A DNA stretch of 64,000 nucleotides from Ashinkailepas kermadecensis (taxonomy: Eukaryota > Arthropoda > Thecostraca > Neolepadidae): positions 368,501 through 432,500 of the forward strand of contig JAOTOM010005105.1 in NCBI GenBank assembly GCA_034440615.1. The letters are read 5' to 3'. Made by a program: the position numbers and the translations under genes. Below the pieces are notes generated by a model. The model saw only the letters and a list, made by a program, of their open reading frames with translations, had not been told where the DNA came from and did no database searches. Every line of letters starts with the position of its first letter. Positions within the stretch are counted from its first letter, which is position 1. Of this stretch, positions 33,647 through 58,087 are shown piece after piece.

Positions 33647-33865
33647 ATGGACACGGAGACGGTGATGGAGACGGTGATGGAGACGGTGACGGGGACGGCG
33701 ACGGAGACAGCTGAGCTGCGACTGAGAGATGATGACGTGAGCAGCTTCCTGACCGAGCTGTGTGCCGGGCTGCAGGTGTCCTCTCTGCCGCCGGCCAGGG
33801 CCAGAGACGAGGCCCTGCAGCACGCGCCTGTTCGTGCCACGCATCTCTCGCCCGAGGAGAAGAAG
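33647..33865 (+). CDS. UROC1: UROC1 exon 1
   Basis: ATG at 33647 in a strong Kozak context (caccgccATGG). It begins with a repetitive Met/Glu/Thr/Val tract encoded by gacggtgatggagacggtga-type repeats, then [20 protein letters not shown] and [15 protein letters not shown]. Donor AAG|GTACGC, phase 0. Confidence 0.9.
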
Positions 33866-36800
33866 GTACGCTGCGAACGCGGCAGCAACGTCATGGGATG
33901 ATCTGCTTCAACTCTCTTACTGGCCGCCGACACTTGGTTATGTGGCATATTAGGTCAGGTGTGTGTACGTGTCATGGCATATTCCTTGAATCCGTGTTGC
34001 TTAGAAATCGTTTTGCCCATGAAAGGTATGATTTTTTTTCCCATATGCAGCATCATAGCTGGTGGCTTCGAATTATCGGTGTTGCCAAGATGTGATTCAA
34101 CCACATTACTTCATATACTGGCATGGACTGAATGTTAAGTCATGAACAATAATTATGTTGCATCGATGGACCCAAATACATAGACCCTTCCATCAACAAA
34201 AAGGTCTGCTGTACTCTGAAATAGTGAACAACATTTCCGTGTACCTTAGCCCACCTTCCCGGTCAGAGCCGCACGTCCCGTCTCGGGGCTCCTTAAAGGT
34301 CCCCAGCCGAACTTCCGAACTGAGCGTTGCACCAAAACTAACTGGATAATATCGGAAAGCCCTCGTTCAATAGGGGCCGGAAATAGTATTACTTTTTATT
34401 TCGAGATCCTTCTTAATCGATTTGTCAAAAACATCGCCAACAAAATGTCAATAAATTCAACCAAGCAAATTCAAAATATATTAACATCGAACACAACCAA
34501 ATATCTGCTTGTTTGGACAATTTAGGTCGTGCAATGCAATTTTGATATTATTTAGGCCATGAAAACGAAAAATAATCATAAAACAGCAGTGCCTAAATAG
34601 GCCTAGCCCACATTTTGCACTTTATCGTAACTTGACCTCAGACCACTTGACGAAGGACATGCAGATTGGATTAGAAACTTCTCCTGGTGCGTCTGCATGC
34701 ATACCAAGGTAAAAATTATGTTGGAAGACCATGCATGTTATACAAATATGGCAATTGACCCAACATAAGACAAAATTGGTCATGACCTCCTCAGTTCACT
34801 AACCTTACCTCAAGCAAAAATCCGAGATATGCGGTTTAGAGGAACTGCTGAATTGCGCTTACGTAGCAAGTGGCATCTAAATATATCTCCGTGTGTATTA
34901 GTTATCGATCCTCAAACGTAACATCATCCGATCCCAAACATCAAACAGAGCACGGGCCTCCAACCTTGTGCAGCATATAGCCGTGAGTGCTTTCATGATG
35001 CACTCTTCTCCGATGAGAACAATTTGGTGTAGTCTTGGTCAGTCTAGTCTTGATCGAATAGTCCATTGATTATTATCAGCGACTTTGTTCCACTCCGCGA
35101 ATGGTTCTCCTCACCACTGCAGCAGCCTCACCCTGTATCAACTGTTTCGCCCTCACCTACGATTCTCCCCACCATTGCAGACGGCTGTTCGCAACGCGCT
35201 GCGCTACTTCCCCGCCTCCTGTCACCCCGAACTGGCGGCAGAGTTTGCCGGAGAACTACTGCAGTACGGGCACATCTACATGTACCGCTTCATGCCCGAC
35301 ACGGAGCGGCTGAGGTCAGTGTGTGTACCGCTTCATGCCCGACACGGCGCGACTGAGGTCAGTGTGTGTACCGCTTCATGTCCGACACGGAGCGGCTGAG
35401 GTCAGTGTGTGTACCGCTTCATGTCCGGGGGTTCAGTTTATGCCTGCCCGACACGGAGCGGCTGAGGTCAGTGTGTGTACCGCTTCATGCCCGACACGGC
35501 GCGACTGAGGTCAGTGTGTGTACCGCTTCATGTCCGACACGGAGCGGCTGAGGTCAGTGTGTGTACCGCTTCATGTCCGACACGGAGCGGCTGAGGTCAG
35601 TGTGTGTACCGCTTCATGTCCGACACGGCGCGACTGAGGTCAGTGTGTGTACCGCTTCATGTCCGACACGGAGCGGCTGAGGTCAGTGTGTGTACCGCTT
35701 CATGCCCGACACGGCGCGACTGAGGTCAGTGTGTGTACCGCTTCATGTCCGACACGGAGCGGCTGAGGTCGTGTGTGTACCGCTTCATGCCCGACACGGA
35801 GCGGCTGAGGTCAGTGTGTGTACCGCTTCATGTCCGACACGGCGCGACTGAGGTCAGTGTGTGTACCGCTTCATGTCCGACACGGAGCGGCTGAGGTCAG
35901 TGTGTGTACCGCTTCATGTCCGACACGGAGCGGCTGAGGTCAGTGTGTGTACCGCTTCATGTCCGACACGGCGCGACTGAGGTCAGTGTGTGTACCGCTT
36001 CATGCCCGACACGGAGCGGCTGAGGTCAGTGTGTGTACCGCTTCATGTCCGACACGGCGCGACTGAGGTCAGTGTGTGTACCGCTTCATGTCCGACACGG
36101 CGCGGCTGAGGTCAGTGTGTGTACCGCTTCATGTCCGACACGGAGCGACTGAGGTCAGTGTGTGTACCGCTTCATGTCCGACACGGAGCGGCTGAGGTCA
36201 GTGTGTGTACCGCTTCATGTCCGACACGGAGCGGCTGAGGTCAGTGTGTGTACCGCTTCATGTCCGACACGGCGCGACTGAGGTCAGTGTGTGTACCGCT
36301 TTATGCCTGACACGGCGCGACTGAGGTCAGTGTGTGTACCGCTTCATGCCCGACACGGAGCGGCTGAGGTCAGTGTGTGTACCGCTTCATGTCCGACACG
36401 GCGCGACTGAGGTCAGTGTGTGTACCGCTTCATGCCCGACACGGCGCGACTGAGGTCAGTGTGTGTACCGCTTCATGCCCGACACGGAGCGGCTGAGGTC
36501 ATGTGTGTACCGCTTCATGTCCGGCACGGCGCGACTGAGGTCAGTGTGTGTACCGCTTCATGTCCGACACGGCGCGGCTGAGGTCAGTGTGTGTACCGCT
36601 TCATGTCCGACACGGAGCGGCTGAGGTCAGTGTGTGTACCGCTTCATGTCCGACACGGAGCGGCTGAGGTCAGTGTGTGTACCGCTTTATGTCCGACACG
36701 GCGCGACTGAGGTCAGTGTGTGTACCGCTTCATGTCCGACACGGCGCGACTGAGGTCAGTGTGTGTACCGCTTCATGCCCGACACGGAGCGGCTGAGGTC

Positions 36801-39800
36801 AGTGTGTGTACCGCTTCATGTCCGACACGGCGCGACTGAGGTCAGTGTGTGTACCGCTTCATGCCCGACACGGAGCGGCTGAGGTCAGTGTGTGTACCGC
36901 TTCATGTCCGACACGGCACACTCATGGTAAGAAAAGAACTAATCATCGAATTGAATTGATCGAATTTCCCGAGTGAACCCCCTATACGAAGCATACCAAA
37001 CGCCAAATGTGGCACAAGACAGTCATGTGGCAGCAATTAGCAAAACTTAGGAGGCCAAGCAGAAACCGGAGAATCGCACGAAGTGTGGCGAATGCACCGA
37101 ATGTGCAAGGCGGGTGTACACGTGCACGAGCTTTGATGTTTTGACGACCGGGCGTTATTAACTGGATTGCATGAAATTTAAAAATTGTACATTTTTATTG
37201 ATTTGCACAGCTGTACTTTCAGCAGTGTGAGGTCACATGCAAGGATACAAAAACCTTCGAACAAGATGAGGGAGTAAGGATTGAAATCCGGTGACTCAGA
37301 GACGATGGTGGCAGATTTGGCCCCATTCACAGGACAATTAAGTTGGTCACTATTTATTTTACTAATACAAATAAAAATAGGCCACTTTGAGAAAATAACG
37401 GTCGAGATCCGGGGACTTATTAAAACTGGGGGTAGGTGATTCCCCTCTAAAACCGTTCCCCCCCTCCACCTCCCCTAGCGCCAATCCTAGGTACGCCACT
37501 GCCTGTCACCGGCTTCATCGCTCAAACTGCAGACTTCTGCAGTCTCAGCACGTCTTGCAATGAATTCGGCACTATGCTCTCGGCGCCAGATCATGCATTA
37601 ATGCACGTGGCAAGCATCAAAGCGGAAGAAGTGCCAACACCGCGAGCCGGAATCTGATTAGCTGATTGCCTAGCTTGCTGCTGAACTAGCGTCGCAGAAC
37701 CACGTGATTTTCCAACGACCGTCCGAACACGAGTTCACTGCCCCTGATTCCCTTGCAGGTGGCCGGAAGGCACACACCGGTCAATGCTGATGTGTGCCCG
37801 GAGCGTGCTGATGCGCCTGTACTCCAGTGTGTCATGGCGAGTGTCTCGTCAGGGGTGCGCCTGTACTCCAGTGTGTCATGGCGAGTGTCTCGTCAGGGAT
37901 GCGCCTGTACTCCAGTGTGTCATGGCGAGTGTCTCGTCAGGGATGCGCCTGTACTCCAGTGTGTCATGGCGAGTGTCTCGTCAGGGATGCGCCTGTACTC
38001 CAGTGTGTCATGGCGAGTGTCTCGTCAGGGATGCGCCTGTACTCCAGTGTGTCATGGCGAGTGTCTCGTCAGGGGTGCCTGACCCATGTGTGTCTCCTCA
38101 TATCGTACCGGTACACATGTACCCGTGTGTGTCTCCTCATGGCGTATCCGATACGCATGTACCCGTATGTGTCTCCTAATATCGTACCGGTACACATGTA
38201 CCCGTGTGTGTCTCCTCAGGGCGTACCCGATACGCATGTGCCCGTATGTGTCTCCTTATATCGTACCGGTACACATGTACCCGGGTGTGTCTCCTCAGGG
38301 CGTACCCGATACGCATGCACCCGTATGTGTCTCCTCATATCGTACCGGTACACATGTACCCGTGTGTGTCTCCTCAGGGCGTACCCGATACGCATGTACC
38401 CGTATGTGTCTCCTCATATCGTACCGGTACACATGTACCCGTGTGTGTCTCCTCAGGGCGTACCCGATACGCATGTACCCGTATGTGTCTCCTCATATCG
38501 TACCGGTACACATGTACCCGTGTGTGTCTCCTCAGGGCGTACCCGATACGCATGTACCCGTATGTGTCTCCTCATATCGTACCGGTACGCATGTACCCGT
38601 GTGTCTCCTCAGGGCGTAACCGATACGCATGCACCCGTATGTGTCTCCTCATATCGTACCGGTACACATGTACCCGTGTGTGTCTCCTCAGGGCGTACCC
38701 GATACGCATGTACCCGTATGTGTCTCCTCATATCGTACCGGTACACATGTACCCGTGTGTGTCTCCTCAGGGCGTACCCGATACGCATGTACCCGTATGT
38801 GTCTCCCCATATCGTACCGGTGCACATGTACCCGTGTGTGTCTCCTCAGGGCGTACCCGATACGCATGTACCCGTATGTGTCTCCTCATATCGTACCGGT
38901 ATACATGTACCCGTGTGTGTCTCCTCAGGTCGTATCCGTATGTGTCTCCTCATATCGTACCGGTACACATGTACCCGTGTGTGTCTCCTCAGGGCTTATC
39001 CGTATGTGTCTCCTCATATCGTACCGGTACACATGTACCCGTGTGTGTCTCCTCAGGGCGTACCCGATACGCATGTACCCGTATGTGTCTTCTCATATCG
39101 TACCGGTATACATGTACCCGTGTGTGTCTCCTCAGGTCGTATCCGTATGTGTCTCCTCATATCGTACCGGTACACATGTACCCGTGTGTGTCTCCTCAGG
39201 TCGTATCCGTATGTGTCTCCTCATATCGTACCGGTACACATGTACCCGTGTGTGTCTCCTCAGGGCGTACCCGATACGCATGTACCCGTATGTGTCTCCT
39301 CATATCGTACCGGTATACATGTACCCGTGTGTGTCTCCTCAGGGCGTACCCGATACGCATGTACCCGTATGTGTCTCCTCATATCGTACCGGTATACATG
39401 TACCCGTGTGTGTCTCCTCAGGTCGTATCCGTATGTGTCTCCTCATATCGTACCGGTATACATGTACCCGTGTGTGTCTCCTCAGGGCGTACCCGATACG
39501 CATGTACCCGTATGTGTCTCCTCATATCGTACCGGTATACATGTACCTGTGTGTGTCTCCTCAGGGCGTACCCGATACGCATGTACCCGTATGTGTCTCC
39601 TCATATCGTACCGGTATACATGTACCCGTGTGTGTCTCCTCAGGTCGTATCCGTATGTGTCTCCTCATATCGTACCGGTATACATGTACCCGTGTGTGTC
39701 TCCTCAGGGCGTACCCGATACGCATGTACCCGTATGTGTCTCCTCATATCGTACCGGTATACATGTACCCGTGTGTGTCTCCTCAGGTCGTATCCGTATG

Positions 39801-42800
39801 TGTCTCCTCATATCGTACCGGTATACATGTACCCGTGTGTGTCTCCTCAGGGCGTACCCGATACGCATGTACCCGTATGTGTCTCCTCATATCGTACCGG
39901 TATACATGTACCCGTGTGTGTCTCCTCAGGGCGTACCCGATACGCATGTACCCGTATGTGTCTCCTCATATCGTACCGGTATACATGTACCCGTGTGTGT
40001 CTCCTCAGGTCGTATCCGTATGTGTCTCCTCATATCGTACCGGTATACATGTACCCGTGTGTGTCTCCTCAGGGCGTGCCCGATACGCATGTACCCGTAT
40101 GTGTCTCCTCATATCGTACCGGTATACATGTACCCGTGTGTGTCTCCTCAGGGCGTACCCGATACGCATGTACCCGTGCGTGTCGGGTCAGGCGGCCGCC
40201 ATCATCCTGATGATTCTGAACAACCTGGACCACCGCGTAGCGCAGTTTCCGCAGGAGTTGGTCACGTACGGTGGAAACGGCCAGGTGTTCTCCAACTGGG
40301 CGCAGGTACGCCTCCTCTCACGGCCCCCTCCCACGCCCTGACGCGATGGTAGGGACAGTCGGTGCCCACTCAAACCTCCTGTGTGTGAAGTGGTACGGTG
40401 TGAGGCAAAGGCTTGTCGTGTGATCACAGGATAGAACGGACCATATACCAGCCCATCTACTCACGAGTGTGGATACATGCAGCTCCTGTTGACGGACCAT
40501 ATACCAGCCCATCTACTCACGAGTGTGGAACATGCAGCTCCTGTTGACGGACCATATACCAGCCCATCTACTCACGAGTGTGGACACATGCAGCTCCTGT
40601 TGACGGACCATATACCAGCCCATCTACTCACGAGTGTGGATACATGCAGCTCCTGTTGACGGAGCAAATAAGACAGAAGGGCACTTCGACTTGTCGTAGA
40701 TCAGCCAGCCTACTCGGGTACTCTGGTACTCGTCGTTTGCTTGCATCTGCAACTTGCCGTTATCTCGCGCGCGACTATTCTGTTGTCATTGAGCGAGTGG
40801 TGCCGTTACCGTCCGACTTCCGTGGCCTTTTAAATACTCGTCTGTTGACGATTAGTATTCACTTTTTGCTCCCAGTTCCATCCAATTCGCACTGCGCCTC
40901 AACTCTGCTCCAACTTTCCCCCCATCAGCACTTCGGTCTGATCCGGACTAATATCCTGCACTGCCTCCAATCTCGTCTGATTACAATCCATCCCGTCACC
41001 AATCCCGTCTGACTACAACTCGCCCCGTCCCTAATCCCGTCTGACACCTCATCCCGTTCCTAGTGCCGCCCGATGCTTCACTTCAGCCTGTTCCTGGCAA
41101 GCACTCTCTCCCGGCCCGAGTACCGCATGAACCATGTCCATCAGCCTCGTCCCCAGTTTCATGCGAGCTACACCCGATCCTCCCCTTATCCAGGTCTACA
41201 TACCCCCCCCCCACACACACCCTCCCCCAGTTTCGTTCGCTTCAACATGCCGTTCAGTCATCAGTTCCATCTTACGTTGCACTGGAAGAACCGTGCAGTA
41301 GGCAAGTGCCTAACGTCACGATGTCAATTATGAGCAGAGAACTCTAGTGCTGTGTTCTGCTCCTCCTGCCACCTCCAGTTGACTGACCGCCCACCCGTCC
41401 AGTTCCGTGTGACTCTGCAGTACCTGTCGACCATGACGGAGCAGCAGACGCTGGTGCTGTACTCTGGCCACCCGCTGGGCCTGTTCCCGTCGAGCGCGGC
41501 GGCACCGCGCGCTGTCGTCACCAACGGCATGGTGGTGCCCAACTACTCGAGCACACGCAACTACGACCGGCTGTTCGCGCTGGGCGTCACACTGTACGGC
41601 CAGATGACGGCCGGCAGCTACTGCTACATCGGCCCGCAGGGCATCGTCCACGGAACCACGGCACGTGAGCCTCGGCCGGCCACTGACCATCGGCCCCCGC
41701 CGTCGCAGGGTCTCTCCTGCTGCCAGCCTCTATCTGGGGCACCGACGCTGGAAACCGGCCTGCTGCATTCTCGGAGCTTTGGGCGCCCTTTGGCATGCCA
41801 CCTTTTGTCAGAATGCAGGCTTTTTACATAGAAATGCGTGTCCATGCCATGAGCACAGCACGAGCACAGGCGTCCACAGCACTTCAGGCATTGGACGACA
41901 GACGGGCATGTTTGTTAGCATGTCCACAAGCCATCGCAAGATGGTTACACGGCTCCGCTCTCATTTATTCACTGGAATTGGTACACGTACTTACTGAAAA
42001 ACATAAAAGAGAATGGGCTAAAACTTGTGAAGGATCACAGCTAACCTGGTTCCGTTCAGCTTTTCAGTGCCGTGCCAACCGAATGTTTGTGTTCCTGTTA
42101 CTATTAAGGGATGGAGGGGAAGTTCTGCCGACAATGAAACCTAGTGGTGTCGTTACTTTGACTCATGGCGGCATGGCGTTCTCCACCCATGGTTCAGAGT
42201 TATTGCAGTGCGCTTCCGGGCACCACGGAATAAAGTCCGATGAGAGACTACAGCGCCGATAAAGGCTATCCACCGGGAAACTGTAATGCAGTTCAGGAAG
42301 GTAGATACCCGAGAGACTGCGACGTCGGATCAGAGACATCACTTGGCAAGACTTCAATGCTGAAAAAAGTACAAAATTGTGGGGTTTGAACGCGTTTGAT
42401 ATGCATTACGAGGGCTGGGGATTGCCGCCTAGTTGGCTCAACAGATTAAGTAGGCATTGGCCTGCACATACCATCATTGGCCTGCACATACCATCATTGG
42501 CCTGCACATGCCATCATTGGCCTGCACATACCATCATTGTCCTGCACATGCCATCATTGGCCTGCACATGCCATCATTGGCCTGACATCACATTTGCCAT
42601 CATTGCCTGCACATGCCATCATTGGCCTGCACATGCCATCATTGGCCTGCACATACCATCATTGTCCTGCACATGCCATCATTGGCCTGCACATGCCATC
42701 ATTGGCCTGCACGTACCATCATTGGCCTGCACATACCATCATTGTCCTGCACATGCCATCATTGGCCTGCACATGCCATCATTGTCCTGCACATGCCATC

Positions 42801-45618
42801 ATTGGCCTGCACATACCATCATTGGCCTGCACATGCCATCATTGGCCTGCACATACCATCATTGCCTGCACATACCATCATTGGCCTGCACATACCATCA
42901 TTGGCCTGCACATGCCATCATTGGCCTGCACATACCATCATTGGCCTGCACATACCATCATTGGTCTGCACATGCCATCATTGGCCTGCACATACCTCCC
43001 CGTCTTGGCACAGCGGGTCGAGTCGCTTCACACGCTCGCCATGAACGCCTCCGACTGGGATGGCCAGTTGGTGACTGGTCAGGCAAGGTCCAGGGCGCAG
43101 GCATCAGGTGACAGTGCCGCCTGTGTGGGCACGCTAAACTCTGTCAAGATTGTGCTCAGAACTGAAATTGTCTGACCCGATGGTGGTTCAGGCTTCAGGA
43201 TCAATACAACAAGCTTACGCTTAGCATTGACTCTGGTCCTGTGAAACCTCGCCAACAATAATTCGAACTAAGTTCATTTTTAGGTTGAAAATACAAATAG
43301 AAAGGAGGCATTCCTTTTGGCTCAATTATTCATAAAGACAATGGCGTTCATCTTATGCTTCGAATGGTTTCTAGATAGTAAAATTTGAAAAGTCTAAAGC
43401 TTTTGAAAAGCACTGGGAGACTACAGACTTGAAAGAGAATTAACATGTATTTTTGAAGGCATAGTCTTTCATAACTCTGATTCCGTACTCAATAAAAAAA
43501 AACTGGAGGATCCTTAAAGACTATATATCGTGGGGCTAGGCACGCCCATTACTTTACCATTGGTGACACTCTGTACCTAATTATCACCTACCATTTACTA
43601 TGAAAACTCACGAAGCAAATCTCGAGGATCAGAAACCCGTGATAAAAATGTAAGACGCAGTATTTTATATAATCCACATCAATTATGTTTCACCATGCAT
43701 AGAAAATAATTGATCGTTGTGAAACATAATTAGCTTAAGCCATATAAAAAGTAAGCCATTTTCACGGTAATGAAGCAGGGCCATGGTCCGAGGGAGAATA
43801 CAGGACTTGAAAGGCTCTGACAACTCTGTGTATGTTATGTATGATTCATCTTATTTATATTTATTTATTGCTGAGTCACTCGAATAAACCTTTTTGTATG
43901 TACGACAAAAGACACCTCGAACTTTGCCTGTACTCGCAAACGGTAGTCCATGGTTTCTGAAGTGGTCTGAAATGTGGCGAATTTCTAATGGATGAATCTA
44001 AGCTTGTAATGGCTAACGCTAATGCAAATGCACAGGTATATTCCCTTCCAAGCCTGTCTTTCCACCTGCACTGTCGAAAACTGAGGTATTCGAAATCCAT
44101 TGACATCACGCCCACCAGTTGACGGATGGCGCCACGCCCACCAACTGACAGATGACGTCACGCCTACCAATTGACGGATGATGTCATTGCCGGCACTTAA
44201 CGGGAACGTCACGGCCGGCGGTTGATGAATGACGTAACGGCCAGAACTTGACAAGTGACGTCACGTCCACCAGTTGACCGCAATGACGTAACTGCCGGCA
44301 GTTGACGGTGCTGAACGCCGGCCGGCGGTACCTGGGCTCAGACGACCTGGCCGGCCGTGTGCTGCTCACCTCCGGTCTAGGCGGCATGAGTGGCGCCCAG
44401 GCCAAGGCGGCCATCGTTAGCGGCTGTGTTGGCGTCATCGCAGAGGTCAGCCGGCACGCCGTCGACAAGCGGCACGCCCAGGGCTGGCTGGACGAGGTGG
44501 TCGACAACCTGGACGCGCTGGTAACGCGTGTGCGCGCCGCCCGCACCGCCCGCCAGCCTGTCAGCATCGGCTTCCACGGCAACGTGGTGGCCGTGTGGGA
44601 GCGGATGGTGGAGGAGCACCGACGCAGCGGCGACCTGCTCGTCGACCTGGGTACCGACCAGACCTCGTGCCATGCGCCCTTCTCCGGTGGCTACTACCCG
44701 GTCCAGCTAGGCTACGAGGAGGCGCGTCGCGCCATGGCAGAACGTCCAGACGAGTTCCGCGCGCTCGTGCAGCAGTCGCTTGTGCGCCAGGTGGCCGCTA
44801 TCAACTACCTGGCCGACCGTGGCATGGCCTTCTGGGACTATGGTAACGCGTTCCTGCTGGAGGCGCGCCGTGCCGGGGCCGATGTTGGAGGCGTCGGCGA
44901 CCCGACCGCACTGCGGTTCCGCTACCCCAGCTACGTGCAGGACTTCATGGGCGACATCTTCAGTCTGGGCTTCGGTCCGTTCCGCTGGGTGTGCGCGTCC
45001 GGCGAGTCGGCCGACCTGGCTGCCACCGATCGCATCGCAGAAACGGTCATGGAGAACATCATGAAAGGCAGGTGTTTGTTTTTCGTTTATTGGGTGGTTC
45101 TCGGCGCACTTTATGCACGATCATGGCTAATGGCGCCGCCTACACTGTTTCGCCGGTGGGCAGCGAGATTGGGAAATGTCCCGAGTGGTGCAGGTGTTGA
45201 ACCCGGGACCTTTGGTACCAAAAGCTCAGCACTTTAACCATTCAGCCATTCCCGCCCCATGAAAGGCAGGTGGATTGGAGCTGTGGCGGCAGAAGTGGAG
45301 GCTAGTGTGCCTTTGGTATTGTCAGTACAACACCACAAATAATGGTGTTGCATGGCAACACGTACCTCCTACCAGACTTGTGCTCGACTCAAACTGTTTT
45401 GGGTCGACTCACATGTGACTCATAGATCTTGAGACCTGATTCGACTCATGATTCAGAGCAGGTCAAAATTATTTGATTCGACTCAATTCAGACTCAGAGC
45501 TCACAAAGCATGATTTGACTTGCGACTCAAACAGACTGACAGAAATTTGAATCGATTCACATCCGACTCAGTGGTATCAGACTCATGAGCCATATGATTC
45601 AGTGTGCACTTCCCACAC

Positions 45619-45691
<73 letters not shown>

Positions 45692-45731
45692 TTGAATATA
45701 ATGTATATATATATACATACATATATATGTA

Positions 45732-45804
<73 letters not shown>

Positions 45805-48800
45805 TATATAATTCCCCTATTTAATAAGACACAGGTAAATATGCTTTGACATCAGAATTCTTAACATTAATACTTATTTGTAGTTATTGTCATTGTTTTT
45901 GGTAAATAACTTCAGTACTCCTCATTCTTTACTCACTAGCAGCTAACAAGTTGACAATTGTAATGCTAAGCATGAATAATTATGCTGTGTTTTTACTCCC
46001 TACTTTGTGTCATGGCATACTATTCACAAAGATGCATGCTTTATATCATTTGTTCATAACTTGCATTTGAGTCATAAGACTCAAATGATTCATTGTGATT
46101 TGAATGATTGACTCATGATTCGACTCATTTTTTTAGAAAGATGTGTTTCAACTCACGACTCAAAATATATTTTGGGGAAAAGAATCGATTCAACTCGCGA
46201 CTCATCCAAAAACGATTGATTCATGAGTCGATTCTCGATTCATCTCGAGTCGAGCGCAAGTCTGCCTCCTACTGGCCGCCAAACACTGTCTTCCTATTTA
46301 CTCTCTGAATCTGTAGAATACACCAAGCTCCTTTCAAAGGCAAATAGGCGCCAATATTTCAGTGCACACCGGGCGTTTTGCATAGTAGAAACTCTTGAAT
46401 ATATTGTCCTGCCAATGCAACATCAATAATTTTCACAATTTAGCGTTCGGTGTACGTTGTTGCATGGATGGTACCTGGTAGAGTAGCATGTTGCATTGTT
46501 GCAACAATAATAATTATGCGGAGCCTATGCCTGTGTGATAGGCTGCTGTCGATCGGTCAGTGATATCCATGGGCTGTGTTCAGTGGCCGCTTTTGCAAAA
46601 CCGTTGGCGCACGTTTATATTTATTTTGGCACATTTGATATGAAAGGTAATTGGCCATATTTAGGTGTTCCTTAGGATGCTTACCAGCACTATTTCGTTG
46701 CTATTTCCTCTCTTGAATGATTTGCATTCCATATTCATACTTTGGCCCTTTGCGCACACATTGAATATCACTGATGGATCTAGAATTTCGCCAAGGGGCC
46801 ATAGTTTTTAGGGAAAGCCCACATGCCATCAGGGGGTGCCTGCCTGAGCTCGGAGGCGTATGAAGGGGCGCCATCTCCCCGAAGAGATGCCACTGACTAA
46901 TATAATTTCAAGGTGGACTGCACTCAAGCTTTCCTGGATGGGTCTGCCCTCCCCATCCCATTCCTCATTATTTCTACTCCTTTTCGACTTTCTACCTTCG
47001 AATGAAAAATGCGAGGCGGTACACTCGAGCGTCCTGAAGCCTTTTCAGTCCGACGGGCATAGTGTCGGGACCAGGGGTCATGGGATCATCCCCCACTCCT
47101 GGATTTCTTTGGGACCAAAGGTCCTGTTGAACACGCTTTGTTTCAACATAGGTCGCACAAGCACACAAGGAATTTGACGTTCCAGTGAGATTGTGGGCGA
47201 TCGGTGATGCTCCCAGGGACGACTTGAAAGGCCATGGATCGACATGAAGGGCCCCTGGGCCGATGAGAGAAACCCTGGGCTGATGGAAAGTGTCCCAAGC
47301 CGATGAAGAGGGTCTTCTAGTCAACAGAGGGTTCCCAAGGACTCATGCTGAGGGGCCTCGGTCTGGGCGAACGTGAGGGTCTGCGGGTCGACGGAGGAGC
47401 CCCGGGTCGTTTGAAGGGCCTCCGGGCTGGCCGACAGGACCCGACGGTAGGGGATCCCGAGCTAACGAAAAGGATCCCTGAGCCGACCGAGATGGTCACT
47501 GAGCCGACCGACACACCTGGCGACCGGAAAAGGCCCTGTACCTATATGAAGGGTATCTAGGCCCAAGGACGCACACATGATTTTTCGTAATGGGGTGCAC
47601 ACATTCTTAAAGGGCCCTGGTAGACTGGGACCCCTCTGAATGACTTGGGTCCTTGATTACTCAGGAACTTGCTCCGTTTTTTTTTCTCTCGAAATGAATC
47701 GGCTTGTTCGGCGTTCGAATCTTGCATACGCTTAATTGTTCTCAGCACTGCAAAAACGGAGTGTGGTTGAAAATGTCGAAGAAGAATATTAATTTGCATG
47801 AAACGAGCTGCAGAAATAACCAAATTGTGTCAGAATTCATAAGACCTTGCAAAACTGGATAATGCGTTGCGTTCATGTGGTTTTATAAAATAAGGGTTAT
47901 ATGTGCATCGGAAATTTAGCTAGCCAGCAATGACAACATAATACGCGGTCATGTCTCTTCGATGAAGTTTATACCTGCTTTCCACCAATGCTGTCTCTTC
48001 TTTATTGATTAGTTCTGCATGGGCGCCACATTTGGTACGAGACCTCCAGAAGAGGAAATGCTACACGTGGACCTCAACATGCTCCGCACACCAATTTCTT
48101 TGGAGGCCCTTTTCTCACAGAGGTTATCCAGAGATGATACTTCAGTAGTAATATGACAACCATCACTGGCGGATCTAGCCCACCGGTTTGGGGGGGGGCA
48201 ACTTTCGGTTTTCGGCGTCAGCCCCCCCCCCCCCTCCCCCTCCCCCCAGTGGCGTACTTAGGAATTGCATCAGAGGAGGGGTCGAAGGAATTTGGAGGGT
48301 GCCCATTCTGCCACTATTTTTTGTTAAAAGCATCGGATTTCTACCACTATTTGTCAAATGGACCCATTTTTTACAATAATAATTAATGACAACATAATTT
48401 CCTTTGTAGGGGCCCCAGCCTACCTCCACCGCTTCTAAGTTACGGGATTTTTGTTCTTGTTTACCAAAACGTTCATGTTCACGTTCAACGTCTTGTACCA
48501 CGTCAACGTTCGTGCACGTGTACACACTGGCAGATCCGATTTTGTCAACTCTTGCTGTAAGCAGAACTTGAGCAGCATAGAACCCTCGATGCGTGTCAGA
48601 ATGTACTATGCTACCATATTGACTTCGAAACAATTATAAAAAATACCTTTAAAATTGGAGATTCTTTCATCCAGACGAAATTTTTTAACCTCGGCAAAGG
48701 TTACTGCATTTTCATTCAGTTTACTTCAGTTGGTTTCGGGGGCCAAAAGACACTATGGCCCCCCTTTTAAGCGCTTCGGGGGAGCCATGGCCGGAATGGC

Positions 48801-51800: not shown

Positions 51801-54800
51801 TTTAGGAAGGTATTATCAGGTACCCCGTAGATGGCAATAATGCATGGTCAAAACAGTATTTTGCGAATATAGGTCAAACTATGACATTGTAGGCCAGACG
51901 CTTTAATGTGTTGCATCCAAGGGCCATAACCAATGTCTGGGTGTTTTTTCGTCGTGCCAAGTAAAATTTTGCGGAAATTATCGTGTACACAAGAATTTGG
52001 TATAGTTGCATTTTTGGGGATATTTTGGCGAACGGTGATGAATCACTGGCCATAATGGGTCATTTTGATCGATGTGCTCTATGTACGTGCTATGTAGACT
52101 ATGACCTGAAAAAAATCAGGTATATCCAATGTGTCACCATGATTTTATTCGGTACCCCGTAAATAGATATAGTGCATGAGTAAAAACAACTTCGGTGACC
52201 TGAGGTCAAACTGAGACATTGAAGTTCATGTAATTCGATGTGCTGCATCTTTGATGGACAGCGGACAGCTAGGCGTTGGAATCATTCGGCTAAGTGAAAT
52301 ACTTCGAATTGTATGCGGTACACCGTTTTTGACCCGAGTGACCTCTCTGGACCTCTGGAGATCGAACCGCTCGTCCTACTGAAGAATCGTTGTTTGCCTT
52401 ACTTTTGCAAGCGACAAAGATCATATCCTGAAAAAAATGAACGAATTCGAAAAGTATGCGAATTGGATGCTAAATGCGAATGCAAATGCGTTGTTAATAT
52501 CATGGACATGTGGTTTTAGCGGAAATAGGTGCCATACATGCACTGGGAAGCACGCAAGATTTTCATGATGGGAAGGTCTAGGATGGGTGAAGATGCTTGA
52601 ATTTGTATTTTGAGAGCAGGCGGTGGTGGTAGTGATGCTGGTGGTAACGTTGGTGTTTATTTCCCCCCCCCACACACAACAATTGCGGAGAGTGATAGGG
52701 CTGGTTCGAATGCTACGGGTGGAGCCTACCCGAAGTCCCAGGGTTGATCTTTATGTTCAAGTTTTCGAGTTCCGGAAAATAATATCAATCCTGAAAGGAA
52801 CCGGCTTGGGTGGCTTCTATGGTGCGCTGGTTAATAAGCATACCAAAAAAAAAATAACGAGCAAACCCAAATATTGCAAATATTGAACGGGGCATGTCTT
52901 CCAGCTCCCTCCCCCATCTTACAAGAGAAAAAAGCCCAGTCGATCTGCCCTGTGTCTTCTTCAGAGGATCTGCCAGATCCTGTGCGGCAGCAGTACCACG
53001 ATAATCTGCGCTGGATCCGCGAGGCGGGCCGACACGATCTGGTGGTGGGATCCCAGGCGCGGATCCTCTACAGCGATTGTCGAGGACGCTCCGCCACTGC
53101 GCTCGCCTTCAATGCGGCTGTAAGGAGCGGCACTCTGAAGGTTAGTGACGGTTCGCAGCGACATTCCGAAGGTAACGGATCCTCACCGATGCAGTCTGAA
53201 AGTAAGTGAGGATCCGTAGCGGTGCTGTGTTGGGTGTCACACGTCTGATAGCGACACTGTGGATATGCCATAAATGATACCAAGTAATTAGGTTCCAAAA
53301 AAGTGGTAAAATGGCCTCACTCACTCGTATGTATTTACAGGAAAAATACAGAATCAAGGGTGTAGCTTTGTATACTTCGAGGCAGCGGGCACTTTACACT
53401 CCCATTCGAATCACATCTCGTCACGCATGGGACACGAGTTTGTCCTGGTTCCCACCAGGTGTCATATGCGCCCTGGCTGGATGCTGTGCCGCAGGGTGCC
53501 GTCATCATCAGCCGAGACCACCATGACGTCAGCGGTACTGACTCTCCGTACCGCGAGACCTCCAACGTGTACGACGGCTCGGCCTTCACCGCCGACATGG
53601 CCGTGCAGAATTGCATCGGGGACGCCTTCCGCGGCGCCACCTGGGTCTCTCTGCACAACGGAGGCGGTGTCGGCTGGTGAGACACCAAACGGTGGCGAAC
53701 AAAACTTTTAGTATCTGCTTCACTCACCAGTCTTTCCTCAGGCGGGTGTTCCTGGCAAAGCATTGTTTCCATAATCTGTAGTGTACACCATCTGCCTCAT
53801 AGTGCATTTGTTTCGGAGCCCAGACAAGAGGTGCAGCCAAGGGGATGGGACCGCCCCCTCCAAACATATAGCATCCGAAGATACACTAGATAAAACAATA
53901 TGTTTTTTTGATTTTCACCACGCGAAAACCTAAATTTTCGTAGCGCATTATCAACTTCAGCAAATTATCAATTTTTGTTCTGAATTAAATAGAAGGATCA
54001 GGTAATCGACACGACGTAGCTCCGTCCTTGAACTTTCAGAGCTACTTGGAAGAACTACCTCTTTCGGTTGACGTTTCATTTTGGATCAAAGGGATCAATA
54101 TCGGGATGCTCTTCAAGAAAACTAAGGAAATCAAATTTGAATCGTTCCCTCCCAGCACTGCAAAGGATAGCATTTATAATTACTAAATTTGCAACGCGGG
54201 TGTCCTACGGGAAAAAAATAAACACAACACGTGTGCTGTTCCTCGCGATCATTTCGCCGACCCGATTACCAAATTGGTGGACGCAGCCTGAGATCTCATC
54301 ACACATTGGTGGGCCTCACGTATGTCGCTAGAAAAGAAAAGAAAGTGGGAAGGCGGATAGAAGTGTCAATTTGTACGTTAGGTATTTGGGGAGCTATTGC
54401 CGCTCCTTTAATGGTCGATATCTCGTTCATGTCTTCTAAATTTAGCATGAGGTCGTATGAAGCTAGCCTCGTCAACAGTGTAAGCTCCCATAGCTAATAT
54501 GTATATTGCCTTCACCTCTCCCTCTCCTCTCCTTTTCCACCACCAATCGGTTTGATGAAGATCATCCGTTGAAGGGGAATGGCACAAAGCATAGACTAGC
54601 ACCACCATGTATATATGTGCATATATACATGTGCATCATGCATATATGAAATATCCAGTAAGTCTTTGATCTCAGTATATCTAGAGATTGATACCTCAGC
54701 CCAGGTCAACCTTTTTCACACCACTTTACCTGCTACCATGATCTCATCCAGCTTTACCACTGCCACATGTCCATAGGCGCACCGGAGGGGGGCCCAGGGG

Positions 54801-57800
54801 CCCCCCCCCCCCATGAGACCAAAGTGCCCTTTTGGCCAAAAGTGCCCTTTTGACCGAAAAGTGCCCTCTTGGCCGGAATGTCCCAAATTTAGCCCAAAAA
54901 TCACCTGCCTTATGTGCCCCGCCTGTGCCAAAGGTGCCCTTTGTTATTGCATAATGCATGCGGGCCCCGCTTAACAAAATCCTGGCTGCGCCACTCCAAG
55001 ACGATACTTATCCCACAACTCCACGTCCGAATTCAATATTGTGCATATTCAATACGCGACAAGATCCCCCTTGCCAACCGGCCCCATTGTAACATTCAGC
55101 ATCGCCGCATGAAAACAGCGGAAGACAGCATCAGCCTTTTAGAGGAGGGACGAGGTGACTCACGCTCCCTGCCATGTACCGACCCATAGATAACATATGT
55201 AATGCACCAGTTATCTGATGAGGGATCCAAGCACCTAGGCTCAGGGGTGGATCCGGGAATTGTCACGGGAACACATGTCAAGAGGGGCGCCTTTGCTCCG
55301 AGGGACACCTCTGGCCGAAAAACTCGATGGGAGTGCACTCGTGCCTTCCCAGAGGAGCACTTCTTCCTAGCCGGAGGGGCGCCATTTTCTATGGGGGCAC
55401 GTGCCACCAGTGCCCCCCCCCCCCTTGCATCCGCCTCTGCCTAGGTGTCACGCACATTGTACGCAGCTCACGTGTGTATTACTAACATAACATACAAACA
55501 AAGAATAGAAAAGCGGCCGCCCTGTTTCAGGGGGGAGGTGATGAACGGTGGCTTCGGGATGGTTCTCGACGGGTCAGAGGAGGCGAGTGGACGGGCCAGC
55601 AGCATGCTGCACTGGGACGTCAATAACGGAATCGCGCGCAGGTGGGGCCTGCTGGAACGGTATGTCGCCTGTTGAAGACATCGCTGGAGGGGACGTTGAT
55701 TATGTCGTTGCGAGAGGATGTCACAGGTCAAGTCGGTTGGTTGGTTGGTTATTGGTTTTTACGACACGTCGACCATTGAGTCATGTAGCGTCGCCAATCT
55801 CTCACGCCGATTGGTCGCGGGCGAAGAGTAGCGACAGGTGAGACTCGAACCCACAACCTTTCGATTGTGAGACGAGCATATTACCCCTAGACCACTCGTC
55901 CTCACAGGTCAAGTCACGACGAGGTATGTCACATCTGAGGAAGGTTCACTGGGAGATGATGTCGTGGATGAGGTCACCGGACTGGAAGCCACAAGTAGGG
56001 AGGTCCGGTAGAAGAGTAGGAAACGGGTAGCGAGGTACACCTGGAGTCGGTGCCCTGAAAATGTTTTTTTTTCAATTGAGGGGGAGTAGGGTGATGCCAA
56101 AAAGTCAACTGATGTGTTAAAAAATGTGCAAATGTATGTGGATAATACCCATTGATGAGTTATTTTCTTTGACCCTTGTTGATTGTTTGATAATGGTGAT
56201 GTTAGAAGTGTACCTGTTGCCTTTACCAGTCGGCAGCGCTGCTGTCAGAAGCCATGCACGCTTTTAAAAACGCAAATCTCACTCATAGCCTGTAGTAAAA
56301 ATCAAAACAAAAATTACATTTAATGATTTCAAAAAGAAAAAATGATGTCAAAAACAATTGTCATAAGGTGTGGGTCTCCACTCAAATTGCAGGGCACTAC
56401 CTGGAGTTGATGTTACCGTGGTTAACACGTGTTGCAACCGTAGCACTGTATGACTTCCGAGTTGGACGCGTCGATGTATTATCAGAAAATGGATCGGCAA
56501 GCTTTTAATTATCCGTATATGGTTCAATGTGCACAGGTTTAAAATCTACAAGGGAACTCATTCATAAAACCCCACATTGCCCTTCAGGGTGGCCAAGGAC
56601 CCTCGGAAGCATGCAATTCTCAACACATGATTAGGTGTAAAATAAAGGAGCAAGCTCCTTCTCAACGAAATGAAGTTGATTAACCTCCACCGCAACCTTA
56701 TTCAACACTTGTTTTTACTTTTTCTCCCACCCCCTGACAAGTGGAATGTTACAGCCAAACGCATCGTGTGTTCCCAGAAAGCTTTGCGAAAATTACTCCC
56801 GTGCTACACCGCTGCAGTTGGTGCCTGAAATGATTGGCACGGTTCCCTCGGTTGTCCATGAATCACTAGAGCATCGTCATTTTCGCTTTCAATCCTGTGT
56901 GCGAATTGCATCGACCATGCTTGTTGCGTACCAACAGGGGCTTGAAGGCCATGCCACAATATATAATGCAAGGCCGGCTGCACGGCCGCCAGTCTTGTGA
57001 TCAATGAGTTGTTTGGTAACGTTGCCGAGCATCACGGACCCACCTGGCGTCTGGTATGCGGCAATGCCCCCGCCCAACGTCGGCTGCTGGCCCATAGTTG
57101 ACTGAAAACGAAGACAAAATCGACAATGCTGTGAAGAACGACAAGACACCGACACCCTTGCAAATAACGGTAATGCGGTGGATACCGTTACAAATAACGG
57201 TAATACACTGCACTATTGAAAAACTGTAATATCTTGACGATGTACCCCACCATATTGCAAACATGTGTGGGGGATCATGGGGAAGAGCGTGGAGAGCGCA
57301 GTCATGGCTCGTCAGATATGAGGTACAGGACACGCACAGGCTTCATTTGTTCAATAGAAATAACGAATTAGCTTATTTTCGGCGCATCAACGTGAGTCTC
57401 TCGAACTGTGTGCAGCCCATTATCACTTTATCACTTTATTGAATTTCACTGGAGGTATTTGATCATGAGCGGTTCTTGCTCCTCTCACTGCCGAAAAGAA
57501 AGGCACGCAGACATGATCATGAGGACCACCTTCTCCTTTAAGGGATTGGTTGGTTGGTTATTGGTTTTACGACACGTCGACCGTTGAGTCATGTAGCGTC
57601 GCCAATCTCTCACGCCGATTGGTCGCGGGCGAAGAGTAGCGACAGGTGAGACTCGAACCCACAACCTTTCGATTGTGAGACGAGCATCTTACTCCTAGAC
57701 CACTCGTCCCCTCTCCTTTAAGGGAAAACCAGTGCGTTTTTACCCCCCCCCATATGCTTGCATTTATCGTTCCATCTCCCCACCGATACACGCTGAACCA

Positions 57801-58087
57801 TGGTCGTCATTTTACCCTTTGTCTGCCCTTCACGGGGTAGTCACAGAACATCCACACGAAGACGCAGACGGTCGTCTGTATAGCTGATTGCGGCATTTGG
57901 CACGAGGCGTGCTCAGAGTGCCCGATCAGCTGTTGCGGTTACGCGACGTGTCGGCAGGAGCTGGTCGGGCAACGAGAACGCCGAGCTGGCTATCTCGCGA
58001 GCCATGCAGGCCGAGCCGCTGCTGAGGGTCACACGAGCCCACCGAGTGCGACAGGACGACCTGCTGGACCACGCCCTCTCGCAGTGA
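33647..58087 (+). CDS. UROC1: Urocanate hydratase (9 exons, 709 aa)
   Basis: Join 33647-33865, 35181-35314, 40152-40305, 41403-41660, 44302-45067, 52965-53140, 53495-53676, 55531-55641, 57958-58087; 2130 nt, in frame throughout. Urocanase (EC 4.2.1.49) hydrates urocanate to imidazolone propionate, step two of histidine catabolism, in the cytosol with tightly bound NAD+. Seen in order: [76 protein letters not shown], the glycine-rich [107 protein letters not shown]. Collinear with vertebrate UROC1 (676 aa) with no gap, plus a Met/Thr/Glu-rich N terminus. Introns 4 and 5 need GC donors to keep frame. Intron 2 is bracketed by splice-site minisatellites (see findings). Confidence 0.95.
35181..35314 (+). 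CDS. UROC1: UROC1 exon 2
   Basis: Acceptor CATTGCAG, donor CTGAG|GTCAGT, phase 2. It encodes [40 protein letters not shown] and TERLR. Its last 32 nt are the template for the 43-bp array that follows at once. Confidence 0.95.
35315..36917 (+). repeat. 43-bp splice-donor minisatellite (~37 copies) at the 5' end of UROC1 intron 2
   Basis: Each unit is the first 11 nt of intron 2 (gtcagtgtgtg) joined to the last 32 nt of exon 2 (taccgcttcatg ... cggctgag). The array begins exactly at the exon border and abuts the exonic original. Variation is confined to a few positions (ccc/tcc, gagcgg/gcgcga/gcgcgg), and copies alternate between types. One unit near 35417-35450 is disrupted. Each unit carries ctgag|gtcagt. 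43 is 3n+1, so use of an inner donor would shift the frame. Confidence 0.95.
36918..37810. other. Central part of UROC1 intron 2
   Basis: Non-array sequence between the donor and acceptor minisatellites. It includes a G/C-run segment near 37425-37502 resembling the edge of the CACTGG-type DNA elements. No gene seen. Confidence 0.5.
37811..38078 (+). repeat. 44-bp minisatellite, 6 copies
   Basis: Copies begin at 37813, 37857, 37901, 37945, 37989 and 38033 with gcgcctgtactccagtgtg and end gtgtctcgtcagggat. Copies are almost identical. Each contains an acceptor-like tctcgtcag|gg. It leads directly into the 79-bp array. Confidence 0.93.
38079..40151 (+). repeat. 79/64-bp splice-acceptor minisatellite (~26 copies) at the 3' end of UROC1 intron 2
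   Basis: Each unit carries tgtgtgtctcctcag|ggcgtacccgat, i.e. the intron 2 acceptor plus the first ~25 nt of exon 3, and a second half-unit in which ag|g is replaced by at|at (tctcctcatatcgtaccgg). The ~40-bp ancestor was thus doubled and the dimer amplified, a higher-order repeat. A 64-bp variant (caggtcgtatccgtatg) lacks 15 bp and recurs ~8 times, interspersed. The last unit is the real exon 3 border. Stop-free in all three + frames, which explains the 570-841 aa reading frames. Confidence 0.95.
40152..40305 (+). CDS. UROC1: UROC1 exon 3
   Basis: Acceptor tctcctcag at 40151. G completes Arg from exon 2, then [40 protein letters not shown] and [11 protein letters not shown]. Vertebrate UROC1 reads RAYPIEQYPC here, so this border is fixed by homology. 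Donor GCAG|GTACGC, phase 0. Confidence 0.92.
40437..40663 (+). repeat. ~56-bp tandem repeat, 4 copies, in UROC1 intron 3
   Basis: Units start ccatataccagcccatctac at 40441, 40497, 40552 and 40608, and end cagctcctgttgacgga. It lies 130 bp after the exon 3 donor and shows no obvious exon-derived sequence. Confidence 0.92.
40860..41200. repeat. Degenerate C/T-rich repeats in UROC1 intron 3
   Basis: Divergent ~30-bp phrases such as atcccgtctgactacaactc recur, with C-rich decay towards 41200. They may simply be pyrimidine-rich intron sequence. Confidence 0.4.
41403..41660 (+). CDS. UROC1: UROC1 exon 4 (donor uncertain)
   Basis: Acceptor CCCGTCCAG. It encodes [40 protein letters not shown] and [19 protein letters not shown]. 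To join exon 5 in phase the exon must end ACCACG|GCACGT (GC donor). A stronger-looking GT site, GCAC|GTGAGC, lies 4 nt downstream but breaks the frame. Confidence 0.85.
41661..44107. other. UROC1 intron 4
   Basis: Contains the 20-bp array at 42455-42996. The remainder (41661-42454, 42997-44107) shows no recognised gene; long frames over the array are artefacts. Confidence 0.5.
42455..42996 (+). repeat. 20-bp minisatellite, ~27 copies
   Basis: The unit cctgcacataccatcattgg is repeated, with ata/atg and ggcc/gtcc variants interspersed. One irregular unit (tgacatcacatttgccatc) lies near 42583. 20 is not a multiple of three and the unit has no stop, so overlapping frames are open. Confidence 0.95.
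44108..44310 (+). repeat. ~26-bp acceptor-derived array at the UROC1 exon 5 border, ~8 degenerate copies
   Basis: Units of the type ccaccagttgacggatgacg recur at about 44111, 44137, 44163, 44190, 44215, 44241 and 44266. The last is the true border ccggcag|TTGACGGTG at 44295-44310. Each unit has a cag-like acceptor and a version of the first 9 nt of exon 5. Perfect CRE palindromes TGACGTCA lie at 44153-44160 and 44256-44263. Copies are older and more divergent than the intron 2 arrays. Confidence 0.8.
44302..45067 (+). CDS. UROC1: UROC1 exon 5 (largest exon; Rossmann-type core)
   Basis: Acceptor GCCGGCAG. It encodes [116 protein letters not shown] and ENIMK. The border giving the right phase is ATGAAAG|GCAGGT (GC donor). 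The GT 4 nt on (GGCAG|GTGTTT) cannot be joined in frame to exon 6. Confidence 0.92.
45075..45257 (-). mobile_element. tRNA-derived SINE (family C) inserted at the UROC1 exon 5 splice donor
   Basis: A 15-bp target-site duplication CATGAAAGGCAGGTG flanks it at 45060-45074 and 45258-45272. This sequence is the end of exon 5 with its donor. On the minus strand the head reads gaatggctgaatggttaaag (box A-like) ... tccgggttcaa-like gtcccgggttcaacac (box B-like). The insertion leaves one donor copy attached to the exon and one 198 bp downstream. Confidence 0.88.
45373..46264. mobile_element. Non-autonomous hAT-like element with (TA)n core
   Basis: Terminal inverted repeats CAGACTTGTGCTCGACTC / GAGTCGAGCGCAAGTCTG are flanked by the 8-bp direct repeat CCTCCTAC at 45365-45372 and 46265-46272. 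The sub-terminal regions are full of gactca/gattcg motifs, possible transposase-binding repeats. No coding capacity. Confidence 0.88.
45622..45801. repeat. (TA)n microsatellite
   Basis: Two long TA runs interrupted by tgtatttgaatataatg and similar sequence, inside the hAT-like element. The Tyr/Ile frames over it are artefacts. Confidence 0.97.
46300..48163. repeat. UROC1 intron 5 segment with degenerate G-rich repeats (47170-47550)
   Basis: 47170-47550 holds decayed ~30-bp phrases of the type cctgggccgatgaagag. The rest of the interval has no recognised gene or element. Confidence 0.45.
48164..49313. mobile_element. Composite CACTGGCGGATC-type DNA element
   Basis: The outer ends CACTGGCGGATCTAG (48164) and GGATCCGCCAGTG (to 49313) are flanked by ACAACCAT / ACCACCAT, a near-perfect 8-bp duplication. 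Inside, the 3' half is present twice (about 48530-48823 and 49010-49313, sharing cagcatagaaccc and aaaatacctttaaaattgg). The first copy ends ggatccgctagtg. Related to the MITE at 13539. Confidence 0.7.
49340..49720. repeat. Degenerate pyrimidine/aggatctga repeats
   Basis: Divergent ~25-30 bp phrases with ctagaggatctgagcttcc and similar. No coding signal. In UROC1 intron 5. Confidence 0.45.
49776..52509. mobile_element. Large foldback element (~2.7 kb palindrome)
   Basis: The ends are inverted copies: atgtccatgatattagcaac at 49776 and its counterpart ending catggacat at 52509. Arms of ~1.2 kb match in order (e.g. actggccataatgggtcat near 52044 against 50226). The centre (~51000-51290) is less symmetric. 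A sub-repeat containing tttgacctcaggtcaacgaa occurs at ~50567, ~51214 and, inverted, ~51697. No transposase-like frame. In UROC1 intron 5. Confidence 0.85.
52965..53140 (+). CDS. UROC1: UROC1 exon 6
   Basis: Acceptor TCTTCTTCAG. It encodes (E)[40 protein letters not shown] and [18 protein letters not shown]. Donor AAG|GTTAGT, phase 0. Confidence 0.92.
53495..53676 (+). CDS. UROC1: UROC1 exon 7
   Basis: Acceptor GTGCCGCAG. It encodes [39 protein letters not shown] and [16 protein letters not shown], the most conserved part of urocanase. Donor TG|GTGAGA splits the Trp codon. Confidence 0.96.
53677..55530. mobile_element. UROC1 intron 7 with two G/C-run DNA elements
   Basis: About 54770-54998 (gtgcccttttggccaaaa repeats between gcgcaccgg and tggctgcgcc) and about 55243-55440 (ggtggatccgggaatt ... 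ttgcatccgcctctg) look like short non-autonomous DNA elements. Ends and target duplications are not well defined. Confidence 0.45.
55531..55641 (+). CDS. UROC1: UROC1 exon 8
   Basis: Acceptor CTGTTTCAG. It encodes [20 protein letters not shown] and [16 protein letters not shown]. Donor CGCAG|GTGGGG, phase 2. Confidence 0.94.
55735..55901 (-). mobile_element. tRNA-derived SINE, family A, copy 2 (minus strand)
   Basis: Flanked by the 14-bp target-site duplication TCACAGGTCAAGTC (55721-55734, 55902-55915). It starts with the (ggtt)n tail ggttggttggttattgg and ends with the tRNA-like head (accactcgtcc side). Intact-looking boxes A and B. In UROC1 intron 8. Confidence 0.93.
57545..57711 (-). mobile_element. 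tRNA-derived SINE, family A, copy 3 (minus strand)
   Basis: Flanked by the 13-bp duplication TCTCCTTTAAGGG (57532-57544, 57712-57724). Almost identical to copy 2, so both are recent. In UROC1 intron 8. Confidence 0.93.
57958..58087 (+). CDS. UROC1: UROC1 exon 9 (C terminus, stop)
   Basis: Acceptor TGTCGGCAG. G completes Arg, then [20 protein letters not shown] and [22 protein letters not shown] and TGA (58085-58087). WSGN matches the RCWSGN segment of vertebrate UROC1. Confidence 0.92.

Follow-up and report, generated by a model that had tools for sequence, protein, structure and literature searches.

Two 'mirage' minisatellites at the borders of UROC1 intron 2 in the barnacle Ashinkailepas kermadecensis

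One of the introns of the barnacle Ashinkailepas kermadecensis carries dozens of copies of both of its own splice sites. It is the second intron of the urocanate hydratase (urocanase, UROC1) gene, and lies in a stretch of 64,000 nucleotides that we refer to as the window (contig C4608:368501-432500, from an assembly of 907.7 Mb in 4689 contigs). Positions below are those of the window unless a contig or locus is named. In their sequence structure the two arrays are 'mirage' minisatellites, a class described from amphioxus; one spans the 5′ border of the intron and the other the 3′ border. The explanation that we consider quite probable is that both are neutral, a border-spanning by-product of a genome that is rich in minisatellites.

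Arrays at both borders of intron 2

Tandem Repeats Finder (TRF) reports 43-bp arrays at 35281-35427 and 35448-36916, which parse into 38 unit starts from 35281 to 36893. Thirty-four units are exactly 43 bp long, two are 42 bp and have lost one base of GTCAGT, one is 66 bp with a 23-bp insertion, and the last is truncated and lacks the donor. The donor GAG|GTCAGT (the bar marks the border) is intact in 35 copies, the first of which is the authentic site. An initial annotation of this DNA had described a 5′ splice site amplified about 37 times at UROC1 exon 2, and these counts bear it out. The gene and the exon 2 border are also as it claimed, since exons 2 and 3, when joined, align without gaps to the Amphibalanus and Pollicipes proteins and to PDB 6uek_A. 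Its geometry needs correction: the array starts 34 nt inside exon 2 and not at the exon/intron junction, and the unit comprises the last 34 nt of exon 2 and the first 9 nt of intron 2, not 32 and 11.

Variation among the units is confined to the exonic part. In the 34 full units there are six variable columns, all exonic, while the intronic nucleotides are invariant. Two linked columns define a Glu form (GAG..CGG, 18 of the 38 units) and an Ala form (GCG..CGA, 15 units); three further units are recombinant and two were not coded. The end of exon 2 itself is of the Glu form, and among the three closest orthologues, two of them from barnacles, P0002 and P0003 have Ala and P0001 has Ser. It is a fair inference that exon 2 and the array have exchanged sequence. 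The initial annotation's proposal of an origin by slippage or unequal exchange is plausible.

The acceptor-border array, which lies outside the interval of the initial annotation, is the mirror image of the donor array. It repeats the start of exon 3 exactly, tctcctcag|GGCGTACCCGATACGCATGTACCCG (AYPIRMYP), with 26 exonic nucleotides in the unit. Two types of unit occur, one of 40 bp (ctcag|GGCGTACCCGATACGCATGTACCCG) with a live AG, which also has a 25-bp short form, and one of 39 bp (ctcatat) with a dead AG. There are 56 unit starts, and CAG stands at the acceptor position in 27 of them (19 long and 8 short forms) and is absent from 29. Apart from the first three units, none of which has CAG, the two classes alternate without exception. 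Counted as TCTCCTCAG, there are 27 copies of tctcctcag, and the last is the authentic acceptor.

A possible seed for this array can be seen in exon 3. The 26 nt around the acceptor have a match in the exon exactly 40 nt away, with 20 of 26 positions identical (the next best among offsets 20-79 has 11). Because 40 nt is the array's own period, exon 3 would hold either the duplication seed or the outermost copy. With a 44-bp array included, tandem repeats account for about 82% of the intron, which is 4837 bp long and in phase 2 at R|AYP. The 44-bp array shows only a weak relation to the border: it aligns to the acceptor unit with a score of 23, against a best of 22 in 300 shuffles, and in a second test none of 1500 did as well (null maximum 22).

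Folding was considered as a cause of the arrays. Four RNA pieces gave z-scores of 0.49, -0.90, -1.06 and -1.78 (for the last, 7 of 200 shuffles were as good) and three DNA pieces gave -0.65 to 0.64, with no clear signal in either set. Similarity between array units is raised at a spacing of three (P = 0.0135) and lowered between neighbours (P = 0.0225); 12 lags were tested and we make no claim from this.

Relation to known systems and choice of splice sites

Contrary to the initial annotation, which knew of no described family of exon-border satellites, the amphioxus mirages are that family. Amphioxus mirages have been described in Adh3, the globins BflGb6 and BflGb9, TnC and PGBD5, with units of 10-160 bp (PMC3087553, PMC3902484). 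The UROC1 arrays share their structural features: they are minisatellite-like tandem repeats, the units span and start from an authentic border (34 + 9 nt at the exon 2 donor, and 26 exonic nt at the exon 3 acceptor), and splice signals are kept in many units (35 donors and 27 acceptors). The conserved open frame of UROC1 is also consistent with regular splicing despite the repeats. We therefore assign the arrays to the mirages, in a new lineage. They differ from the amphioxus examples in being found in a barnacle, not a cephalochordate, in occupying both borders of one intron, and in their alternating live and dead acceptor units. They also have 38 and 56 unit starts, against 3 and 6 units in the two BflGb6 haplotypes.

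Other systems are similar in part. Human internal tandem repeats in segmental duplications are likewise minisatellites at exon-intron boundaries and can alter splicing, but are not called mirages; they average four 30-bp units and occur in recent paralogues (PMC2812944), whereas the UROC1 arrays have many units and exon 5 of the gene occurs once in the assembly. The UBC and VCX3A arrays also consist of tandem units that each carry AGGT. The UBC units are coding, and their sites act as donor and acceptor (PMC10809524), whereas in the UROC1 donor array a stop ends the frame and an acceptor context is missing. Nor is the donor unit an in-frame coding unit of the mRNA, as 43 is 3n+1 and a stop lies 85 nt past the first donor.

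Tandem genomic duplication as a source of introns (PMC3443670) likewise copies an AG|GT segment, but makes a new intron, whereas at UROC1 an existing border is amplified. It might still be argued that intron 2 is itself young, a product of the tandem duplication of an exon segment with AGGT, and that the arrays are its remains. All intact donor units contain AGGT, the gain of introns through tandem genomic duplication counts among the listed routes and has been demonstrated in vivo (PMC3443670), and the authors of the amphioxus globin study propose intron gain from mirages (PMC3087553). However, about 0.9 kb of array-free sequence separates the two arrays and their units look unrelated, and we regard this origin as very unlikely.

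In the searchable literature on mirages and barnacle repeats we found no mirage outside amphioxus, judging by titles and passages among the matches listed; subscription papers lay mostly beyond this search. The words minisatellite and intron are absent from the main text of two barnacle genome papers.

With both ends of one intron copied dozens of times, the cell must choose the right site among many identical decoys. We joined each of the 35 donors in silico to each of the 27 acceptors. Full frame is kept by 14 of these 945 pairs, and conserved length and protein result only from the first donor with the last acceptor. By this measure and by homology, 35314 (the first donor copy) and 40151 (the last acceptor copy) form the authentic pair. 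Not one of the 34 inner donors leaves the frame open when joined to that acceptor. The frame argument of the initial annotation mostly stands, in that 43 is 3n+1 and read-through from exon 2 meets a stop. Its proposed rescue by three further units does not, as the stop 85 nt past the first donor means that the addition of 129 nt restores the frame only behind that stop.

Could the arrays nevertheless be functional, with inner sites that tune UROC1 output or make isoforms, as the AGGT sites of human UBC do? AG|GT is present in each intact donor unit, and 26 upstream acceptors look intact. Unlike the donor array, the acceptor array (37812-40352) runs without a stop for 573, 676 and 846 codons in its three forward frames. 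Thirteen non-standard pairs retain full frame. In six of them the first donor is joined to an upstream acceptor, which adds 74 to 434 amino acids (aa), and in the other seven the second donor is used, which adds 62 to 501 aa. UBC itself provides a precedent (PMC10809524). That said, the frame is broken in 931 of the 945 pairs, the donor array stops after 85 nt, the donor units have no pyrimidine tract by eye and 29 of the 56 acceptor units lack AG. We think a function of this kind unlikely. Most likely the exon-proximal sites are used and the arrays are neutral to splicing.

The gene, its neighbours and further border arrays

The window holds a complete nine-exon UROC1 gene on the plus strand, coding for 709 aa in a frame that is open throughout (Table 1). 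The protein is 80% identical to that of Amphibalanus amphitrite, 78% to a second Amphibalanus entry, 79% to Pollicipes pollicipes and 77% to a JGI protein; the closest named match outside the barnacles is from the termite Zootermopsis (71%). These matches mark the DNA as barnacle and speak against amphioxus as its source. At this locus the genes run in the order CPEB1, UROC1, su(s)-like. Each of their Amphibalanus orthologues (P0121, P0051 and P0241, respectively) is listed under a contig 569,249 bases long, presumably one and the same. At 41660 and 45067 the best reading of the UROC1 donors is GC, which is drawn from orthologue frames alone. A tRNA-Val (CAC) gene lies near exon 9 on the minus strand (57636-57711).

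Table 1. Exons of UROC1 and tandem arrays, in window positions
Feature	Position	Strand	Remarks
UROC1 exon 1	33647..33865	+	ATG; donor AAG|GTACGC; open frame, tblastn with Amphibalanus/Pollicipes orthologues
UROC1 exon 2	35181..35314	+	authentic donor GAG|GTCAGT at 35314/35315; orthologue comparison
Donor-border array	35281..36917	+	43-bp unit; TRF and unit parsing
44-bp array, x6	37810..38078	+	with TCTCGTCAGGG; possible distant relative of acceptor unit (weak)
Acceptor-border array	38082..40184	+	alternating 40-bp live-AG and 39-bp dead-AG units
UROC1 exon 3	40152..40305	+	authentic acceptor tctcctcag|GGC at 40151/40152; orthologue comparison
UROC1 exon 4	41403..41660	+	inferred GC donor ACG|GCACGT
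Two diverged 26-bp arrays	44101..44307	+	second array enters exon 5 by 6 nt
UROC1 exon 5	44302..45067	+	inferred GC donor AAAG|GCAGGT
UROC1 exon 6	52965..53140	+	donor with decayed copy at 53191ff (24/31 identical)
UROC1 exon 7	53495..53676	+	orthologue comparison/open frame
UROC1 exon 8	55531..55641	+	orthologue comparison/open frame
UROC1 exon 9	57958..58087	+	contains stop

Border arrays are not restricted to intron 2. Within UROC1, a diverged 26-bp array repeats the acceptor region of exon 5 (CCGGCAG|TTGACGG), and the donor of exon 6 has a decayed second copy. The su(s)-like gene, on the minus strand and reaching into L010 of contig C4608 just beyond the downstream end of the window, has a donor mirage at exon 4, with 4.2 copies of a 20-21 bp unit (GCGCACCTCG|GTAGGCACCCC, L010:1505-1590). 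In the same gene a 27-bp x32 array abuts the exon 2 acceptor (L010:4050-4913) and has CTCTGACAG in many units. A further example, unlinked to the window, is found in CCT2 (L036, contig C4378), where a 30-bp x12.5 array CTGGGCATCA|GTACGTCAGG lies on the exon 6 donor (L036:7441-7793); the exons joined at this junction align without gaps to PDB 4b2t_B (T-complex protein 1 subunit beta).

These arrays bear on the possibility that the UROC1 arrays, or their lengths, are errors of the assembly. Tandem arrays are frequently mis-sized, as is generally known. Collapsed tandem repeats are suspected in a rhizocephalan assembly by its own authors (PMC9582164). Yet the variants follow an irregular order and indels are present, the UROC1 locus lies within a 963-kb contig, and the same type of structure is found at the unlinked CCT2 locus; an artefact is in our view highly improbable. 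Near-equal TCP-1 matches were also observed on two contigs (C4646:273707-274117 and C3901:6597-7001). This pair may be two haplotypes or paralogues, and may give access to length polymorphism of an array.

Two candidates at other UROC1 borders were rejected. A 32-bp array in intron 3 (40967-41045), which scored above 1500 random 60-mers, resembles the exon 4 acceptor, but that acceptor failed against shuffles within its own intron (24/200). The copy at the exon 5 donor is a 15-bp exact direct repeat 198 bp apart; it is not covered by an array and is more like a target-site duplication. This repeat, CATGAAAGGCAGGTG (45060-45074 and 45258-45272), spans the donor and flanks 183 bp, a segment that looks like an insertion with its target-site duplication. 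The insert has no second copy within the window and contains no tRNA.

Exon borders against a minisatellite background

Are exon borders favoured sites for such arrays? We compared 44 nt around each border with 350 nt on its intron side, and counted a local copy where at most 1 of 300 dinucleotide shuffles was as good. Positive borders number 6 of 16 in UROC1, 1 of 15 in CPEB1, 4 of 12 in the su(s)-like gene and 1 of 12 in CCT2, where two more reach 2/300. Among the six of UROC1, the copy at the exon 2 acceptor is intronic only and that at the exon 5 donor is the one resembling a target-site duplication. The same test is positive at 13.4% of 500 positions in the window, or 7.5% when both intron 2 arrays are excluded (467 positions), and at 65 of 400 positions taken from 20 stretches elsewhere in the genome. 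Pooled over the four genes, 12/55 borders (22%) against these 65/400 positions (16%) is a raw comparison and not clearly above.

A second test asks only whether a TRF array covers a border and extends 5 nt or more beyond it in both directions. This is so for 6 of the 55 borders (UROC1 3, CPEB1 0, su(s)-like 2, of which one is a 1.9-copy repeat, and CCT2 1), against 609 of 4000 random positions in 20 spaced 10-kb stretches (15.2%; P = 0.45); when UROC1 is left out the count is 3/39 (P = 0.26). In these 20 stretches 15.4% of the sequence is minisatellite (10-200 bp), and in the window 11.6%. An ungapped test gave no enrichment either: of 14 positions (the start codon and 13 borders), 2 had at least 20 nearby copies, compared with 7.7-9.9% of 1000 positions drawn at random from the window.

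The border sets and controls define these figures as follows. In the ungapped, random-60-mer and own-intron tests, the end of exon 5 and the start of exon 6 were slightly off and exons 8 and 9 were excluded; the later local-copy and coverage tests used 16 UROC1 borders. The CCT2 set of 12 has its exon 3 donor one nt off and its exon 3 acceptor excluded, one acceptor is excluded from the CPEB1 set, and the su(s)-like borders of exons 1, 6 and 7 have weak or no homology behind them. Control stretches are 40001-50000 of every 160th contig from C1600, hence not random, and the border control consists of positions of any kind rather than intron interiors.

The coverage and background counts indicate that the arrays of this small sample run across exon borders at about the rate at which they run across any other position; they neither seek nor clearly avoid them. 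A rival explanation is that minisatellites in this lineage are preferentially generated at splice junctions, e.g. through R-loops or splicing-coupled breaks. The local copies at UROC1 and su(s)-like borders are in its favour, but the low counts in CPEB1 and CCT2 and the coverage result are not, and we hold such targeting to be quite unlikely.

The explanation that we prefer, two neutral mirages as by-products, would run as follows. Each array would have begun as a tandem duplication across a border of intron 2 and grown by slippage or unequal exchange, in a genome that is about 15% minisatellite in our sample and in which exon borders are not clearly avoided. Exon definition would favour the copies that lie closest to the main parts of exons 2 and 3, so the exon-proximal donor and acceptor are probably chosen. 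Use of inner copies would mostly give frameshifted or interrupted mRNA. The arrays would be removed with the intron and hence be near neutral.

Some points weigh against this explanation. The seeds and the slippage are steps that we infer from the present sequence. The excess of local copies at UROC1 borders (6/16 against 13.4%, P ~0.014) leans towards an effect of borders or of this locus. Random placement was assessed with just 55 borders from four genes, including UROC1, which the initial annotation had singled out. Finally, exon 5 DNA of UROC1 occurs once in the assembly, i.e. a single haplotype is represented.

The case is new in its lineage, in its arrays at either end of a single intron and in its unit count, and it gives a first indication that arrays in this genome disregard borders. 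Mirages now extend from a cephalochordate curiosity to at least one arthropod, in three of the four genes examined. As borders in our sample are crossed at about the background rate, many more are predicted in this genome, where border arrays appear to be a side effect of crowding with minisatellites. It could equally well prove right or wrong that mirages, independent of those in amphioxus, sit at several per cent of barnacle exon borders (thousands of them), with a spliceosome that routinely takes the exon-proximal copy and arrays that exchange sequence with exon ends. Because its 34 inner donors and 26 inner acceptors share the core sequence of the authentic sites, UROC1 intron 2 offers a natural test of position against sequence strength in splice-site choice. 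It is also a place to watch intron growth, intron gain and the conversion between arrays and coding ends.

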